NCBI GenBank assembly: GCA_009691855.1
Contig: SIAI01000001.1
Coordinates: 62,001-126,000, forward strand
Source of the DNA: Planctomycetota bacterium
Lineage (GTDB): Bacteria > Planctomycetota > UBA1135 > GCA-002686595
Length of the DNA stretch: 64,000 nucleotides
Direction of reading: 5' to 3'
The first letter of the stretch is position 1. Each line of letters begins with the position of its first letter. The notes under the pieces are model-generated. The model was given only the letters and a program-made list of their open reading frames with translations, had not been told where the DNA came from and searched no databases. Both the position numbers and the translations under genes were made by a program. Shown here one piece after another: positions 7,873-50,087 of the stretch.

Positions 7873-10800
7873 ATGGCCGATTCCGATAGCGCGACGCAAC
7901 TCTTCCTAGGCTGGCTGGAGGAGCACGAGCGCGGCGGGGGCGCGCCCTTCGCCGCGCTGTGCGCCGCGCGTCCTGAGTTCGGTGCACGGATGGAGGAGCT
8001 GCGCGCTGCCCACGCGCGCGCGCAGCGGCTGCTCGCCTCCGGCGCCGAGGCTGGGGCGCTGCCCGCCGAGCCCGCACAACTCGCGGGCACGCGCTACGAG
8101 CTGCGCGGCGAGATCGCGCGCGGCGGGATGGGCGCGATCCTCGAGGCCTATGACCCGAGCCTGCGGCGTACGATCGCGATGAAGGTGGTGCGCCCCGGGC
8201 GCGGCGGACGCGTACGACCTTCGACGCGCGTCGAGCGCGCGCGGCACCACAGCCGGTTGCTGGCCGAGGCGCAGGTGCTGGCCCAGCTCGACCACCCAGG
8301 TGTGGTGGCGATCCACGAGGTCGGCGAGGACGCGCACGGGCGCGCCTTTTTCACCATGAAGCGCGTGCAGGGCCACGACTTCGAGGTCGTGATCCGCGCC
8401 CTCCACGCCGGCGACCAGACCTGGCGTCTGCCACGCGCGGTAGGCGTGTTGATTCGCGTCTGCGACGCGATCGCCTACGCGCACTCGAAGGGCGTGATCC
8501 ACCGCGACCTGAAGCCCGCCAACGTGATGGTCGGGGACTTCGGCGAGGTTTTCGTGATGGACTGGGGCCTGGCGAAGGTCGTGGGCGGCGTTGCCCTGCC
8601 GGCCACGCTCTCCGCGGAGGATGGTCCGCCGCCGGCGCTGCCCGCGCGGGAGGTGCGCACCGATCGCGCGCGGGCCACCCCCGCTGGCGCGCCGCTGGCC
8701 ACGCAGCACGGTACGGTGCTGGGCACGCCCGGCTACTTGTCGCCCGAGCAGGCGCGCGGCGAGATCGAGCAGCTCGACGCGCGCAGCGACGTGTACGCGA
8801 TCGGGGCCATGTTGTACCACCTGCTCGCCGGCCGCCCGCCGTACGCGGACAGCGGCGAGAGCGGGGCCGAGCTGGTGGCCGCCACCTGCGCTGGACCGCC
8901 GCCACCGCTGTCTCGGGTCGCGTCCGACGCGCCCGAGGAGCTGGTGGCGGTCGCCGAGAAGGCCATGGCGCGTCAAACCGTGGCGCGCTACGCGAACGCG
9001 CAGGCGCTGGCCGAGGACCTGCACGCCTGGCGCGAGGGCCGCGTCGTGCGCGCGCACCGCTCGGGGGCCTGGATCGAGCTCGAGAAGTGGGTCGGCCGCA
9101 ACCGCGGCGTCGCGGCGCTCGTCGCCCTGCTGGGGCTCGGCGTGTTGGCGACGGGCTGGATCCAGGCAGTGGGAAAGCGCGCGCTCGAGAGTTCACGCGC
9201 CGAGACCGGGGTGCGCGCCGCCGAGCTACGCCGGGAGGACGCCTACAACCGCATCGCGCTGGCCAGCGCGGCCTTCACCAACGGCGACATCGGCCACGCG
9301 CGCGAGCTCCTGGCCGGCTGTCCGCCCGACCTGCGCGGCTGGGAGTGGCGGCACCTGCTGCGCGAGTCGGACACCAGCGCGCGCGTGCTGCGCGTGGCGA
9401 ACCTGGATCTCAAGAGCGCGTGCGTGCTGGCCGACGGTCGCACGCTGCTCACCGCCGGCAGCGGGGCGCCGACGCGCATCCAGCTATGGGATCTCGAGAG
9501 CGGAACGCCGCAGCGCGCGCTCGAACTGCCCGCCGGCGAGGCCATCAACAACGTGAGCTTCTCGGGCGACGGCGCGCTGCTGGCCGCCTTCACGAGTATC
9601 GGCCACCTGCGTCTGTGGGACACGCACAGCTGGGAGGCCCGGCCGAGCCTGGACTCTCGCCTGCACGGCTGGCACGGCGTGAACTTCGCACCGCACGGCG
9701 CGCGGCTTGCCGCCTACGGGACGGAGGGCGTGCAGCTGTGGGACGTGGAGCAGGGGACCTTGCTCGCGCTGCTCTCCGCGCAGCAGCAGGACATCGCCGA
9801 CGTCGCCTGGTCTGCGGACGGGACGCGCCTCCACGCTGCGTCCTGGGACGGCAGCGTCAGCGTGTGGGCTGCCGATTCGCAGCAGCTGGTGCGCGTGCTG
9901 CACGACTCGTCCGCGCGCATGCAACAGATCGAGTGCAGCCCCGACGGGCGCTGGCTGGCGGGCGGGGACTGGGACTCGCGCTTCTGGATCTGGGATGCGC
10001 GCACGCTGGAGGTCGTGCACCGCTCCGACCGCCTCGGTGGCTACGTCCTGGCCCTGGCCTGGAGCCCCGACTCGAGCTTGCTCGCGGTGGGCGGCAAGGG
10101 CGTGGTCGTGCAGCTCTTCGAAGCCACGGACTGGGAGTGCGTCGGGCGCCTCGTCGGCCACGCCGCGAGCGTGCAGACCCTGGCCTTCACGCCTGACGGG
10201 AGCACGATCGTCAGCGCTTGTGCGCTGGGCTCGGTGCGCCTGTGGGACCTCGCGCGCCTGGACTGGCGCACGCTGTACCGCGCAGACGGCAGCGAACCGG
10301 CGGCGGAGATCGCCTTCTCCGCCGACCCCACGCGCGCGGCGGTGGGCTGGACGCACGGCGAGATCGAGATCTGGAACACCGTGGCGCGCACGCGCGAGCG
10401 GCGTGTGGACAGCGGCGCGCGCATCCGCCACCTGGACTGGTCGCGCGACGGCGCGCTGTTCGCGGTCGCGGACTGGTCGCGCGACCTGCTGCTGCTCGAC
10501 GCGCAGGACGGGAGCCTGCGCCGGCGCATTGCGCTTGCCGAGCCGACCGAGGTGCACATCGATCCCGCCGGCAAGCGCCTCGCGGCCTGCGCCCAGGATG
10601 CGCATCTGCGCGTATGGGCGCTGACCACGGGCGAGCTCCTGTGGGACGTGCCCGTGCCCTGCGTCGAGCGCGGCTGGCCGGGGAACCTTTTCGGCGCCAG
10701 CTGGTCCGCCGACGGACGCGAGCTGGTTTCCAGCACCTTCGACGGTCGCATCCAGGTGCGCGACGCGGCCACCGGCGCGCTGCGCCGCGAGGTGCTCCAT

Positions 10801-32910: not shown

Positions 32911-33103
32911 CCGCGGAGCCTAACCGAACGGGGCGCAGCCCAGCGCGTGCTGCGGAGGGACTCACGCGGCGAGTCCGGCAGAGCCATGGCCTCGCCCTGG
33001 CAGCGCGTGGGCTTGCTATCTTTGGAGCCCGGACCGGGTCCGTTTTTCACAGGTTTCCTCACCCGCGCCGGCGCCGGCGGTGTCGAGCGGGCGGAGAACA
33101 GCG

Positions 33104-35170
33104 ATGCCGACCGAACCCTTGCCGATCCAACCCACGCCGTTTCAACCCGTGGGCGAGCCCGACGCGTTCCTGGCCAACCAGACCTTCCTGCGGCGCCTCG
33201 CGCGCGGGTTGATCGAGGACGCGGCGCAGGCCGAGGACCTGTTGCAGGAGACCTGGCTCGCCTGGCGCGAGCGGCGGCCGGCGGGGCTCGGCGAGCCGCG
33301 CGCGTGGTTGACGCGCGTGCTGCAGAACCGGGCGCGCAACGCGCGGCGCGAGGAGCGCGCTCGCCTGGGGCGCGAGCAGGCGGCGGCGCGCAGCGAGGCG
33401 GTGGGAGACGAGCTCGCGCGCGAGACGCTGGAGGTGCAGGCCGAGGTCGTGGAGCTGCTGCGCGGGCTCGATGAGCCCGTGCAGAGCGCGCTCGTGCTGC
33501 GCTACTTCCACGGCCTGGCGCCGGGCGAGATCGCGGAACGCAGCGGGGTCTCGGTGAACACGGTCAAGTCGCGCCTCACGCGCGGCCTGGCGCGGCTGCG
33601 CGAGGAGCTCGATCGCCGCCACGCGCGCGACCGGCGCGCGTGGAGCGCGTGTCTGCTGCCGCTGGCGCTGACCGAGGGCAGCATGGGCAACGCGCGGCCC
33701 GCGAGCGCGTTCGACGGCGCGGTGTCCGCGCGCTCGCCCTGGCTGGCCTTCGTCGGCGGGGTCTGCGCGCTCGCGGTCGTGGCCGTGCTCTTCGCGTTCG
33801 TCTGGCCGCAGCGGCGCGCGACGGCGGGCTCCGTAGCGCTGTTCGCGCCCCGCACGGTCGAGCCGGTCGCGGCGGCGGAGCTCGAGCTCGCGGCGCCGCC
33901 GTCCCTCGAGCCCGAGGCCCAGCGCGCCGCGCTCCAGCCCACCGCTGTCGCGCCCCAACGCATCGCGGTCGAGTGGCCGCAGTTCGCGCGCAACGCCGCT
34001 CACGACGGCTTCGACCCGCAGCTCGACGACAAGCTCCGCACGCCCGCGATCCTGTGGCACGTCGCGGACACCTTCGGCCAGCCGACGCTCAGCGGCGGCG
34101 ATCTGTACAGCGGCGGGCGCGGGTTGTTCCGCATCGACGCGACGAGCGGGGTCGTGCTGGCGCGCGTGCTCGGGCCGGACGCGGACAAGACGACGGCGAA
34201 GCCGGACGACGTGCCGCTGACCGTGGCCGCGGCGCCGGCGCTCACCAGCGAGCTCGTGCTCGCGCGGCGCTTCAAGGACGGCGGCGTGACGGCCTTCGAC
34301 CGTGCGCTCGCGCGCGAGCTGTGGAGCTGGACGCCGGAGTCGGCGTGCGTGGGCCAGTTCCCCGGGTGCCTCGCGGGCGGGCTGTACGTGTGCGCCGCGA
34401 ACGAGCGCGTCGTCGCGCTGCGCGTGGCCGACGGCAAGGAGGCGTGGCACGTAGACACGGGCGACGGCGCCGTGAGCATGGTCCCGGCCGCGGCGGAGGG
34501 GCGCGTGTACTTCGGCGCCGAGGGTGGCACGTTTTTTTGCGTGAAGCTCGCCGGCGGCAGCGAGATCTGGCGCGTCGACACTGGCGGGGAGCTCGGCTGG
34601 ACGAGCCCGGTGGTGGTCAAGGATCGCGTCGTGTTCGCCGATCGCGGCGGCGCGGCCGCGCGCGCTGGAGCCGCGCGGGACGACAACGACGGGGACACCG
34701 GCGGCAGCCGCCGCGGCGAGCTGCGCGCGTACGCCACCAAGGACGGCACGGAGCTGTGGCACACGACCTTCGGCGCGACCGGCTTCTCGACGCCCGGCGT
34801 CGGTCCTGGCTACGTACTGGGCGGCTTCGGGCGCTCGGTCGCGCGCTTCGATCTCGCCAAGGGCCGCATCGACGAGGGCCACAGCGTCCGCACCGGCCAG
34901 AACGCCTTCGGCTCGCCGACGGTGGTGGGGGACTCGCTCGTCTTCGGCAACCTGGACGGCAACCTCTACGTGCACGACCTCGAGCGCGGCAAGCTCGCGT
35001 GGCGCTTCCACCTGCCGCCCGAGAAGCAAGCGAGCGACTTCGTGCACGCGGGTGAGCGGATCTTCCTGGCCACGACCGAGGGGCTTTACTGTCTTGGCGA
35101 CAGCGGCTCGAATCGGCGCCTGCCGCCGGAGTTCGTGCTGGAGTCCACGGCGCCGCCGCTGGTGCGCTGA
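33104..35170 (+). CDS. ECF sigma factor fused via a membrane helix to a PQQ-like beta-propeller
   Basis: A 688-residue fusion. Residues ~25-95 are sigma region 2 (ARGLIEDAAQAEDLLQETWL, RAWLTRVLQNRARNARREE). Residues ~120-175 are region 4 (ALVLRYFHGLAPGEIAERSG, VSVNTVKSRLTRGLARLREE). A hydrophobic helix at ~212-232 (LAFVGGVCALAVVAVLFAFV) follows, then a long segment of PQQ-type blades to the C terminus (FDRALARELWSW, LRVADGKEAWHVDTG, YATKDGTELWHTTFG, GNLYVHDLERGKLAWRF). The ATG start has GGAG at a spacing of 8. The reading frame is continuous, with no sign of a frameshift. The propeller is presumably periplasmic and may gate the cytoplasmic sigma factor. Confidence 0.9.
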   Translation: MPTEPLPIQPTPFQPVGEPDAFLANQTFLRRLARGLIEDAAQAEDLLQETWLAWRERRPAGLGEPRAWLTRVLQNRARNARREERARLGREQAAARSEAVGDELARETLEVQAEVVELLRGLDEPVQSALVLRYFHGLAPGEIAERSGVSVNTVKSRLTRGLARLREELDRRHARDRRAWSACLLPLALTEGSMGNARPASAFDGAVSARSPWLAFVGGVCALAVVAVLFAFVWPQRRATAGSVALFAPRTVEPVAAAELELAAPPSLEPEAQRAALQPTAVAPQRIAVEWPQFARNAAHDGFDPQLDDKLRTPAILWHVADTFGQPTLSGGDLYSGGRGLFRIDATSGVVLARVLGPDADKTTAKPDDVPLTVAAAPALTSELVLARRFKDGGVTAFDRALARELWSWTPESACVGQFPGCLAGGLYVCAANERVVALRVADGKEAWHVDTGDGAVSMVPAAAEGRVYFGAEGGTFFCVKLAGGSEIWRVDTGGELGWTSPVVVKDRVVFADRGGAAARAGAARDDNDGDTGGSRRGELRAYATKDGTELWHTTFGATGFSTPGVGPGYVLGGFGRSVARFDLAKGRIDEGHSVRTGQNAFGSPTVVGDSLVFGNLDGNLYVHDLERGKLAWRFHLPPEKQASDFVHAGERIFLATTEGLYCLGDSGSNRRLPPEFVLESTAPPLVR

Positions 35171-35267: not shown

Positions 35268-37016
35268 TCACTCGTCGAGCGCGTAGCGCGCGAGGCTGCG
35301 CTCGTCGGGCTCGAGCGCCCACAGCTCGCGGCCGTCCGGCGCGAGGCCGAGCCAGGGACGCGAACCCGCGTCGCGCACGTCGAAGGCGACGGGCCGCAGG
35401 CTGCCGTCGGTCGTCTCGAGCAGCAGCGCTTCCCAGCCCTGCGCGCTCAGGATCCGTCCGCCTTGGTAGGCGAGCACGTCGGCGCGCAGGCCGTCGGGGA
35501 GCGCGCGGCCGCCGCGCGGCTTGCCGCCGGGGTCGTACCAGGAGAGAAACGGGGCCTGGAGGTGCTTGCCACCCTCGAAGCGGATGTCTGCGCAATCGAG
35601 CTCGGCCAGCGCGCCGTCGCTCGCCGCGGTGAAGGCCTGGATGCTCCGCAGCCAGGTGCCGTCGGCGCGCTTGTCGATGCGTAGGCCGGGGAAGCAGGTG
35701 AGAGCGGCTGGGCTCGCCAGCCAGTAGCGCGCGGGCCAAGGCGGGAAGGCGAGCTGGCTGGCGAGTTCGACCACGCCCTCGGGCTCGCCGCTCGGCGAGA
35801 AGCGCGCGTAGCCGGCCTCGTGGCCGACGTAGATGCGCCCGTCGGGGCCGGTGTGGAGCGACTCGCCCGGCTCCCAGGCCGCGCGCAGGTCGCGCGCGGC
35901 GGCGAGCTGCTCCGGCGCGGGCCGACACACGGCGAGGCGGCGACCGCCAGCGTCGAAGACGCGCACGACGAGCGTGTCCTCGTCCTGCAGCAGGAGGCGA
36001 GCGAAGGTCGAGTCGATGCGCGCGCGCCACGGCGGCGCGGGCGGAGCCTCGTCGTCCACCAGCCGCACGCGCGCGACGAGATGCGCCCGCAATGCTGGGC
36101 CGAGCTCGACCTCGGCTTCGACCGGCTCGACGTACGCAGCGCGCCGGAGCTCGCTCACCTTCCAGGCGTCGTCGCTGTGTTCGAGCGCGAAGCTGACGCG
36201 CAGCTTCTCGGCCACGAACCACAGCTCGAAGCTCGCCTGCGCCGTGGCGAGGATCGAGGACTTGGCCAAGAAGCGCAGGGATGCGTTGGGATCGTCTCCT
36301 GCCTGGTAGTCGTGAGCGATGGAATGCTCCCAGAGCACGCGCCAGCGCTCGTCCACGAGCTGGAAGCGCGCGTCGCGCCCGATGGGCTGCGTGTCGAAGT
36401 CGAGCTCCATCCAGCACAGCAAGGCGAGCGAGGTCCCGGGGATCGCGCGCACGTCCACGAGGTGCTCATGGGGCTCGCGCTCGGGGCGGCTGCACAGGCG
36501 CTGCGTGGACAGGCGTGCGCCGCTCGTCAGGTCGTAGCCGAGGCACGACGAGACGAACCGGTTGTTGCCGTCCGCCTGGCGATCCTCGAGCCACACGACG
36601 AAGCGTCCGAGCTCGGGCTGCAGGAAGACGCCACGCGCGCGCGGCACGGCCTCGGTGTGCGCGATGCGGCTCGAGCGCCGCGCCTGACTCTCTCGCGCGC
36701 GCACCGCGCCGGTCGGCGCGAGTAGCACGACCTCCAGCGTGCGCGGGTCGGGCTGCGCCGCGCTGCCGCCCGAGTACGCGACGCCGGCCACGCGTCCGTC
36801 CTCGCCCACCGCCGCGCGGCGCAGGGCGAACGGACGCGACCCGTGCCAGACGAGCGCGTCGCCGTCGCGCAGCACGTACTCCGCGCCTTGCGTGCCGCTG
36901 CGCTCATGCGGTTCGACAGCGAGGCTCCAGCGTCCCGAGGGCGAGCGCTGGACGGCCGGCTGCACGAGCTCGCGAGGCAGCTGCGCAAGAGTGAAGAGTG
37001 CGGTGAACGCGAGCAC
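35268..37016 (-). CDS. secreted protein of unknown function, probable beta-propeller
   Basis: A 582-residue exported protein with a short leader (AFTALFTLAQL) from a GTG start. Most of it consists of beta-strand-rich segments with GPDGRIYVGHEAGYARFSP- and GLAPDGRELWALEPDERS-like loops, recalling NHL or six-bladed propeller repeats. No catalytic motif was recognised. It converges on the sigma/propeller gene; the shared 97-base gap holds the inverted repeat. Function unknown. Confidence 0.6.
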   Translation of the reverse strand: MLAFTALFTLAQLPRELVQPAVQRSPSGRWSLAVEPHERSGTQGAEYVLRDGDALVWHGSRPFALRRAAVGEDGRVAGVAYSGGSAAQPDPRTLEVVLLAPTGAVRARESQARRSSRIAHTEAVPRARGVFLQPELGRFVVWLEDRQADGNNRFVSSCLGYDLTSGARLSTQRLCSRPEREPHEHLVDVRAIPGTSLALLCWMELDFDTQPIGRDARFQLVDERWRVLWEHSIAHDYQAGDDPNASLRFLAKSSILATAQASFELWFVAEKLRVSFALEHSDDAWKVSELRRAAYVEPVEAEVELGPALRAHLVARVRLVDDEAPPAPPWRARIDSTFARLLLQDEDTLVVRVFDAGGRRLAVCRPAPEQLAAARDLRAAWEPGESLHTGPDGRIYVGHEAGYARFSPSGEPEGVVELASQLAFPPWPARYWLASPAALTCFPGLRIDKRADGTWLRSIQAFTAASDGALAELDCADIRFEGGKHLQAPFLSWYDPGGKPRGGRALPDGLRADVLAYQGGRILSAQGWEALLLETTDGSLRPVAFDVRDAGSRPWLGLAPDGRELWALEPDERSLARYALDE

Positions 37017-47714: not shown

Positions 47715-50087
47715 ATGAACGCAAACGACGCTGGTTTCGGAGACGCACCCGACGAGATCGCCTGGGTGCGCGCGCTCGCCCGGCGCCTGGTGGCGGCGCC
47801 AGAGGACGCCGAGGACCTCGAGCAGGAGGCCTGGCTTGCCGTGCTGCGCCTCCGGCCCCGGGCGCACGCGGGCCTGCGGCCGTGGCTTGCCACGGTGCTG
47901 CGGAACGGAGCCCGCCGCGCGGCCCGCACGCAGCGCCACCGCCAGGGGCACGAAGCGCGCAGCGCTCGCGCGGAGGCCCTGCCCTCGGCCCAGGAGCTCG
48001 CCCAGCGCGCCGAGCTCGCACGCGCGCTCGTGGCCCACATCCTGAGGCTCGACGAACCTTTTCGCTCGACGGTGCTCCTCTGCTTCCAGGAGGGGCTCGC
48101 GCCCCGCGAGGTCGCGCGCCGCCAGGGCATCCCCGCGGCCACCGTGCGCTCGCGCCTCGCGCGCGGCCTGGCCGAGCTGCGCGTGCGCCTCGACGTCGAG
48201 CGCGGCCGTGAGCGCTGGCTCGCGGTGCTGTTCGCGCTCGACGGTGCTGCGGCGGAGGCGGTCGTGCCGCGCGCGCTCGCGGCCGCCGGGCTCGGCATGC
48301 TGGCGCTGGTCGGCGCGCTGGCGTTCGTGACGTGGGCACGCGCCCAGCGCGACGAGAGCCTGAGCGTCGCGGCGGCGGCATTGCCCGCGACGGAAGCGAG
48401 CGCGCCGAGCGCGCCCGCGTCTCCGCCAGGACCCCCCGCGCGACGCGAGTCACTCCCGTCGCCGGCCAGCGAGCTCTCGTGCCGCGTGCGTCTCCTCGAC
48501 GCGCTCACCGGCGAACCGCTGCCCGACTACCGCGTGGCGCCGCGCACCGGCGCGCCCCAGACGGAGCTCGTCAGCGACACGCAGGGAGAGCTCGACCTCG
48601 CCCTCGCACCCGGCGCGCGCCTGGCCTTCGACCTGCCCGAGAACGTGGGCCCGGCGAGCGAGGCCGGAGACATCCGCCCGCGCGACTGCGCGCTCGAACG
48701 AAGCGAGGGCGCACCGCAGCCGCTCGAGCTGCGCGTGCCCGCGGGACCGACGTATCGGCTCGTGCTCGTGCGGCCGCCCGGCTACGCGCTTGCGGACCTG
48801 CGCGCGACGCTCGCCGTGCGCGGGAACGCGCCGCCGCGCGAGGAGCTCGTGGCGGACGTGCGCGCCGGCGCAGTGCCATGGGTGCGCTTCTCGCCGGCCG
48901 CGCTGAGGCTGCCAGCGGCCGAGGCGTGGACCCTGCGTGTGACGACCGCCGACGGGCTGTGGGCGGGCGAGGCCGAGGTCGCCGAGCGCGAGGGGCGGGT
49001 GAGCACGCCGGTCGCGATCGAGTTTGCGGCGCGCGCGCGGCTGCGCGTGCGCGATCCGAGCGGCGCGCCGCTCCCGCAGGCGAGCCTGCGCGGGGAGGCG
49101 CTCGCAGGCGCTTCCGCCCCGACGCGCGCGACCTTCGCGCGCAGCGGCGCCGAGTTGGTCGCCTCCGCTCTCGTACCCGGCGCCTGGGAACTCGTGGCGC
49201 GTGCCGCGGGCCACGTCGAGGCGCGCGAGCGCGTGGAGCTCGCCGCGCTGGAGGAGCGGCGCATCGATCTCGTGCTTTTGCCCGCTCCCGCCGTGCCACG
49301 CGCGCGGCTCGCGGGTCGGCTGGAGAGCGCGAGCGGCCGCTATCGCGACTCCGCCTACCCGCGCCTGACTCCGCTCGACGGCAGCGGCGCGCGCGGGGCC
49401 CCGCTCGAGTGGCGCGAAGAGCATGGGCGCGTCGTCGGTCTCTTCGCGGGCGATGTACCCGCTCCCGGCCGCTACCGCGTCGAGGTGGACGTGCCCGGCT
49501 TCCTGGCGGTCGAGCCACCCTTCGTCGAGCTCGAGGCCGGCGACCCGCCGGCGCGCTTCCTCCTGCGCGACGACGTGACGCTCAGCGCGCTCGAGCTGCG
49601 TGCGCGCGACGACGAGGGCCCGCTCGCCTTCCGCGTGCGCCTGACGGTGGAGACGGCGAACGGCCCGCGCCGGAGCGACTCCGGCGAGCCGCGCGCGGAG
49701 GTGCGTTTCGAGGGCGTGCCGCGGGGCGCGCGCTGTCGCACGCTGGTCTTCGCCGCCGGACACTGCCCGGCGGAGGGCGAGCTGCTCGTGGAGGACCTCG
49801 CGCGTCCGCTCGAGGTGCACCTCGAGCGCGGCTTCGGCTTCGTGCTGGTCGCGTGCGACGGGGCGGGGCGGCCCCTCGCCGGCGCACGCATCGAGGGCGA
49901 CGGCGCCGCGCTCGCCGAAACCGACGCAGCGGGTCGTGCCCTGGTGGCGCTCGCGCGCGCCCCACGCACGCTGCGCATCACCTACCGCGACTGGCGCCCG
50001 CGCGCGAGCGCCCGGCTCGCGCCCGACGGCGCGCTGGCGGTGGGGGCGGACCCCGAGCTCGAGGTCGTGCTGGAGCCGGTGCGCTGA
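47715..50087 (+). CDS. ECF sigma factor fused via a membrane helix to carboxypeptidase-regulatory-like domains
   Basis: A 790-residue fusion. Sigma region 2 is ARRLVAAPEDAEDLEQEAWL with RPWLATVLRNGARRAAR. Region 4 is FRSTVLLCFQEGLAPREVAR followed by RQGIPAATVRSRLARGLAEL. A hydrophobic helix at ~192-208 (GLGMLALVGALAFVTWA) leads to a Pro/Ala linker and several beta-sandwich units of the CarboxypepD_reg type (VRLLDALTGEPLPDYRV, LRVRDPSGAPLPQASLRG, VACDGAGRPLAGARIEGDG). An ATG at 47697 is an alternative start; neither has a good ribosome binding site. The 47448-47714 gap is a divergent promoter region with no gene. It is the second sigma-membrane-sensor fusion in this window. Confidence 0.87.
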   Translation: MNANDAGFGDAPDEIAWVRALARRLVAAPEDAEDLEQEAWLAVLRLRPRAHAGLRPWLATVLRNGARRAARTQRHRQGHEARSARAEALPSAQELAQRAELARALVAHILRLDEPFRSTVLLCFQEGLAPREVARRQGIPAATVRSRLARGLAELRVRLDVERGRERWLAVLFALDGAAAEAVVPRALAAAGLGMLALVGALAFVTWARAQRDESLSVAAAALPATEASAPSAPASPPGPPARRESLPSPASELSCRVRLLDALTGEPLPDYRVAPRTGAPQTELVSDTQGELDLALAPGARLAFDLPENVGPASEAGDIRPRDCALERSEGAPQPLELRVPAGPTYRLVLVRPPGYALADLRATLAVRGNAPPREELVADVRAGAVPWVRFSPAALRLPAAEAWTLRVTTADGLWAGEAEVAEREGRVSTPVAIEFAARARLRVRDPSGAPLPQASLRGEALAGASAPTRATFARSGAELVASALVPGAWELVARAAGHVEARERVELAALEERRIDLVLLPAPAVPRARLAGRLESASGRYRDSAYPRLTPLDGSGARGAPLEWREEHGRVVGLFAGDVPAPGRYRVEVDVPGFLAVEPPFVELEAGDPPARFLLRDDVTLSALELRARDDEGPLAFRVRLTVETANGPRRSDSGEPRAEVRFEGVPRGARCRTLVFAAGHCPAEGELLVEDLARPLEVHLERGFGFVLVACDGAGRPLAGARIEGDGAALAETDAAGRALVALARAPRTLRITYRDWRPRASARLAPDGALAVGADPELEVVLEPVR

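Follow-up and report, generated by a model that had tools for sequence, protein, structure and literature searches.

An ECF sigma factor joined through a transmembrane helix to a BamB-like propeller in a sensor-swapping family of Planctomycetota with predicted internal translation starts

In the window, by which the whole stretch of 64,000 nucleotides analysed is meant, positions 33104-35170 of the plus strand form one uninterrupted reading frame of 688 codons, running from ATG 33104 to the stop at 35170, that encodes an ECF sigma factor, a transmembrane (TM) segment and a propeller domain. Judged by its sequence, this gene is a member of a large Planctomycetota family of ECF-TM-sensor genes in which the sensors are swapped. 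We propose that its product is receptor and sigma factor in one polypeptide, which would be tethered to the membrane and then released by proteolysis, a model that we regard as reasonably probable. With somewhat better than an even chance, such receptor-sigma genes are two-product genes, in which a ribosome-binding site at the TM edge would allow a sigma-less receptor to be made from the same mRNA, giving separate doses of sensor and sigma.

Architecture and neighbourhood of the gene

The original prediction of one continuous frame for a sigma factor, a membrane helix and a propeller is borne out by the 688 codons, the Pfam matches, the one TM segment and a paralogue with the same order of domains. 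The features to which the text refers are the following.

33104..35170, plus strand: whole gene, ECF sigma factor - TM - propeller, 688 aa (frame, Pfam)
33093..33096, plus strand: Shine-Dalgarno-like GGAG, 7 nt 5' of the full-length ATG (sequence)
33161..33619, plus strand: ECF sigma domain (regions 2 and 4), residues 20-172 (Pfam PF04542, PF08281; AlphaFold2)
33632..33682, plus strand: post-sigma4 helix, residues 177-193 (AlphaFold2; family pattern DR.AW..LLPLA)
33674..33685, plus strand: possible internal start GAGG, 5 nt, ATG (Met194, 33683), matched by 96% of synonymous shuffles
33746..33802, plus strand: transmembrane segment, residues 215-233, modelled helix 212-238 (hydropathy, AlphaFold2)
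33818..34030, plus strand: Ala/Pro/Glu-rich disordered linker, residues 239-309 (AlphaFold2)
34040..35143, plus strand: eight-bladed BamB-like (PQQ_2) propeller, residues 313-680 (Pfam, AlphaFold2, Foldseek)
47715..50087, plus strand: second family member in the window, ECF sigma - TM - CarboxypepD_reg sensor, 790 aa

The 688-aa protein matched Sigma70_r2 (E-value 1.8e-10; sigma-70 region 2, PF04542, residues 23-85), Sigma70_r4_2 (1.6e-12; region 4, PF08281, residues 114-165) and PQQ_2 (1.6e-21), all above the curated cut-offs, and TIGR02937 was also matched above its cut-off. Regions 2 and 4 are present and region 3 is absent, the composition characteristic of an ECF sigma factor, and because of these E-values the occurrence of two Pfam families in one frame is not a matter of chance. 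The antisense strand of the gene is likewise open for about 660 codons, which is accounted for by the fact that such openness is common at this G+C, and protein-family matches were obtained with the plus frame only and not with the antisense frame. A single hydrophobic segment was detected in the protein, with a Kyte-Doolittle mean of 2.73 over 19 aa (residues 215-233). In the AlphaFold2 model (22 sequences; mean pLDDT 74, pTM 0.55) a sigma fold at residues 20-172 is followed by a helix (177-193), disorder (194-211), a second helix (212-238) and disorder to about residue 309, and residues 313-680 form about 32 strands, corresponding to eight blades. The gene product shows the one-piece layout of sigma domain, single TM segment and predicted extracytoplasmic domain that is known from IutY.

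Upstream of the gene lie a peptidase-like gene and a gene for an RluA-type pseudouridine synthase, both on the minus strand, and downstream a gene for a 582-aa protein on the minus strand is followed by the gene for DNA polymerase IV on the plus strand. The 582-aa protein encoded directly downstream (35268-37016) has no Pfam or NCBIfam matches. None of the flanking genes encodes an anti-sigma factor by Pfam, as had been predicted for the vicinity of this gene; the flanks are unrelated and the gene stands alone. Between sigma4 and the TM segment Pfam gave no zinc-finger match, and into these roughly 40 residues, consisting of one helix plus disorder (173-211), no zinc-finger or other anti-sigma domain fits. 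No anti-sigma domain before the TM segment would account for an off-state of the sigma factor, and tethering alone may not be inhibitory.

The propeller and the ECF-TM-sensor family

When the propeller was compared with the PDB by Foldseek, the nearest folds were those of BamB, tetrathionate hydrolase and YxaL, all of which are extracytoplasmic proteins. The propeller resembles them in its eight-bladed PQQ_2-type fold and in its predicted place outside the cytoplasm, but its identity to them is about 14-18% and none of them is joined to a sigma factor. The description of the propeller as PQQ-like is therefore retained as a label for the fold but not for quinone chemistry, none of which is indicated: unlike what would be found for a PQQ-dependent dehydrogenase, the best fold matches are not dehydrogenases.

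A second ECF-TM-propeller gene (L021) is present in the same genome, has an equal domain order and is 41% identical over the whole length. Searches of 61 relatives and of 392 genomes from the phylum, and a query with the propeller only in 294 genomes, yielded no further propeller fusion, leaving just the two copies in the genome of origin; in the same genus, a fragment of the propeller was found that is truncated at a contig end. Two stand-alone propellers with signal peptides were also recovered, which are 38% and, over part of the length, 40% identical to the propeller of the 688-aa protein. One of them is encoded 0.6 kb downstream of a gene of the ECF-TM-CarboxypepD_reg type and in the same orientation, an arrangement that supports a putative working link between such sensors and propellers.

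About 20 proteins of the same genome have a sigma domain, one TM segment and a large C-terminal part, and in blastp the 688-aa protein is 40-52% identical to its paralogues. The C-terminal sensors of ten members scanned in this genome comprise CarboxypepD_reg (eight members), DUF4097 (one) and the propeller (one, L021). A profile (A2) made from the sigma and juxtamembrane region of 20 paralogues, the 688-aa protein included, found 21-43 matches in four relatives at 1e-15 and, at 1e-25, 4-45 matches in seven genomes of other families (4 in one genome); in most of the other genomes searched there were about 13-45 family matches. Most of the genes matched by A2 are open frames of 700-1400 aa. Part of this family may already be a named ECF group.

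Several loci were recorded in addition. Three ECF-TM-sensor genes lie on one strand within 12 kb of the same genome (L027:3670-15530), forming a local cluster of paralogues. The gene at L177:10629-13421 (minus strand) encodes a CarboxypepD_reg-like sensor that has a TM segment at its N-terminus and lacks a sigma domain; its neighbours are a gene for a secreted propeller and one of the ECF-TM-sensor genes. Split relatives, with separate genes for sigma and sensor, were not found; the two loci considered, L034 and L036, look frameshifted and prove nothing. Both belong to the same genome and have their frameshifts inside or after sigma4 (L036:2875-4947 and L034:3264-3992), and the sensor part of L036 is read on in a different frame, beginning with an ATG at the TM edge. 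These frameshifts may represent sequencing error, decay or a split gene.

Upstream of the family genes, GATTC or GAATC within -110..-25 was present in 25/76 and 17/34 genes of two sets, compared with 5.1 and 2.7 in shuffles and 0/33 kinases. Whichever of the two sets was used for training, the model converged on GATTCCTG(C/A)A.CG - N11 - GCGGCATC, an element also written GATTCCTGcAaCG-N11-GCGGCATC, and each model finds the other set, with 32-38% of the genes above the 95% shuffle level versus 3-12% of kinases, an agreement that is less than fully independent because the same seed words, picked on pooled data, were employed. The element, shared by about a third of the family, has the appearance of an ECF promoter, which would point to auto- or cross-regulation. 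Relative to the start codon it is positioned at about -74 in L027 (ORF at 9877), at -48 in L071 and at about -42 in L165. For 33104-35170 the best upstream site is below threshold, and an autoregulatory promoter was rejected for this gene.

Probable translation starts at the transmembrane edge

An internal start that makes the propeller a separate protein had been put forward in the original prediction as the observation that would speak against a fusion; such starts are predicted with strong evidence for many of the 127 family members analysed but are unsupported for 33104-35170 itself. In a first set, comprising 86 members of the family in five genomes, the frequency of Met has its maximum exactly at the N-terminal edge of the TM segment (39 Met in positions -5..+4 versus about 5 expected), and 45 of the 86 have an ATG near this edge. 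Shine-Dalgarno (SD)-type 5-mers precede 14 of these 45 ATGs, whereas synonymous shuffles, in which codons were permuted within each gene, gave 2.4 ± 1.4 (maximum 8 in 200 shuffles), and control windows elsewhere in the same genes showed nothing similar. Glycine codons just upstream are GGA in 34/50 cases as compared with 13% overall, whereas GGA accounts for a share of 0.16-0.18 at this place, near background, in the 41 members that lack the ATG; a few ATG-less members have GTG at the TM edge with GGA four codons earlier. The spacing between SD and start in the family is centred on 7-8 nt. In the window, the second family member (47715-50087, plus strand) has a TM-edge ATG without SD.

An independent set of 41 members, mostly from seven other genomes, gave SD matches of at least 4 in 17/27 (shuffles 4.8 ± 1.6, maximum 9 in 300) and GGA in 26/38 (17% overall). 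When all 127 members were pooled, 70 had an in-frame ATG at -12..+8 of the TM edge versus about 21 expected, and an SD site preceded 38 of these 70 ATGs versus 10.2 ± 2.4 in synonymous shuffles; among the remaining 57 members, 14 had GTG or TTG with SD (shuffles 5.2 ± 2.0). Upstream glycine codons in the pool are GGA in 48/72 compared with 1377/9922 (14%; P = 3e-24), and the AT content at fourfold sites rises from about 0.15 elsewhere to 0.27 immediately upstream and 0.22 immediately downstream of the ATG, an enrichment that is absent in members without ATG. Median identity of members to their nearest relative is at most about 52%, and after collapsing members at 55% identity the GGA bias amounts to 44/62.

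As a control, 31 Ser/Thr kinases of the same genomes with a TM segment after the kinase domain had 5 ATGs versus 9.9 expected, one weak SD site and no GGA bias. The idea that the SD-like sites are chiefly ribosome pauses for membrane insertion was rejected: neither the members lacking ATG or GTG nor the 31 kinases show the GGA bias, and the spacing is centred on 7-8 nt. The TM-edge site is probably a real translation start, from which about half of the family members would produce a signal-anchored sensor devoid of the sigma domain.

With regard to 33104-35170, it is unlikely that the propeller is made chiefly as a separate signal-anchored protein from Met194 and that the full-length fusion is a minor product. 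Such a division would be in line with the strong family-level evidence for ribosome-binding sites at the TM edge and with the in-frame ATG at 33683, which has GAGG at a distance of 5 nt, but this arrangement is expected from the protein sequence alone, as 96% of synonymous shuffles yield such a site, and is not beyond chance. Also, Met194 is located about 20 residues before the TM segment instead of at its edge, the GGA codon is not used there, and the propeller paralogue L021 has no internal start with SD.

Candidate mechanism, known systems and meaning

In the preferred model of a tethered receptor-sigma protein, the ECF sigma domain would be cytoplasmic and fastened to the inner membrane by a single helix, and the flexible linker would present the BamB/YxaL-like eight-bladed propeller in the periplasm, where it would sense the state of the envelope through a ligand or a protein partner. 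The outer part would be trimmed by a periplasmic protease and the helix then cut by a site-2 protease of the RseP type, both as in IutY, and the sigma domain would be freed. In many family genes the second ribosome-binding site before the helix would provide a sigma-less sensor that might buffer the receptor-sigma protein or multimerise with it. The architecture, the family and the lack of an anti-sigma gene and of a zinc-finger anti-sigma domain are read from the sequences, and the external location is strongly supported; tethering as the off-state, proteolytic release and a gating ligand are what we infer. RseP-like M50 proteases are encoded in the same genome, and because they were found in 14/14 control genomes as well, their presence is weak support for release.

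Signalling by conformation without proteolysis, in which the sigma factor would work while bound to the membrane and the propeller would signal through the helix or by oligomerisation, is considered improbable. ECF41 and ECF42 factors with C-terminal extensions act uncleaved (PMC8999054), and a single helix with a flexible linker permits oligomer changes, but cleavage takes place in IutY (PMC5411451), the sole one-piece TM factor with experimental proof, and rigid transmission is unlikely because the 70-residue linker between helix and propeller is disordered in the AlphaFold2 model.

For the receptor-sigma model, as in the original prediction, the propeller is very probably outside the cytoplasm, since a sigma factor has to be cytoplasmic and the protein has a single TM segment, and this location is further supported by the signal peptides of the stand-alone relatives and by the extracytoplasmic nature of the nearest folds. 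Mean net charges before and after the TM segment are +0.58/-0.45 in the 86 members and +1.15/-1.10 in the 41 others, a positive-before, negative-after pattern as expected for a predicted N-in, C-out orientation. Against this trend of the family, the 688-aa protein has RR on the C-terminal side of the helix and lacks the positive-inside pattern, and its orientation therefore rests on the sigma factor being inside and on the relatives. That the propeller is a cytoplasmic, WD40-like protein-binding platform of the ECF57 type, with the helix uninserted or only peripheral, is very improbable: WD40-bearing ECF factors are known from Gemmataceae and were recovered in detergent-soluble fractions (PMC8567305), and the RR after the helix would fit, but the hydropathy of 2.73 is typical of a true TM segment, stand-alone propellers carry signal peptides and extracytoplasmic-type CarboxypepD_reg repeats occupy the place of the propeller in sister proteins.

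Of the known systems, IutY (ECF243) from Pseudomonas putida is likewise a single polypeptide in which a sigma domain is joined through one TM segment to a periplasmic domain; this domain is trimmed by Prc, the protein is cleaved at the TM segment by RseP, and the sigma domain is thereby liberated (PMC5411451, PMC8999054). In IutY, however, the periplasmic part is an anti-sigma domain of the FecR type, which has a TonB receptor as its partner, whereas the 688-aa protein has a propeller and no adjoining receptor gene, and Pfam found only PQQ_2-type matches and no FecR-type domain in its C-terminal part. ECF52 (SCO4117) and ECF48/ECF53, reported to be exclusive to Actinobacteria, share the order of ECF domain, TM segment, disordered (Pro-rich) linker and extracytoplasmic sensor, which is carbohydrate-binding in SCO4117 (PMC5826349, PMC8999054), but they possess a zinc-finger anti-sigma domain before the TM segment and the 688-aa protein does not. 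ECF57 and other WD40 ECF factors from Gemmata and Tuwongella are similar in being ECF sigma factors of Planctomycetota with a C-terminal propeller (PMC8567305, PMC8999054), and some Tuwongella ECF factors were found in detergent-soluble fractions (PMC8567305). Their propellers consist of WD40 repeats, in contrast to the BamB/PQQ_2 propeller of the 688-aa protein, and the mark of ECF57, two conserved Cys in sigma2 and sigma4, is missing from its sigma domain, the first Cys being residue 183, C-terminal to sigma4. ECF factors tethered to the membrane in one piece are already known, as are ECF factors that carry propellers; what is new is the combination of a BamB-type propeller with a TM-tethered sigma factor lacking an anti-sigma domain, together with the size and the sensor-swapping of the planctomycete ECF-TM-sensor family and the predicted internal starts.

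ECF factors normally require a separate anti-sigma factor for sensing the outside. The planctomycete group seems to replace the pair of sigma and anti-sigma factor by receptor-sigma proteins, present in tens of copies and with exchangeable sensors. If the internal starts in many of these genes make a sigma-less receptor, one gene would contain both a sensor and a decoy or partner for it, a built-in design for sigma factors of which no description was found in the open-licence literature. The dose of sensor and the dose of sigma factor would then be set separately, which would lead to buffering, a threshold or mixed oligomers.
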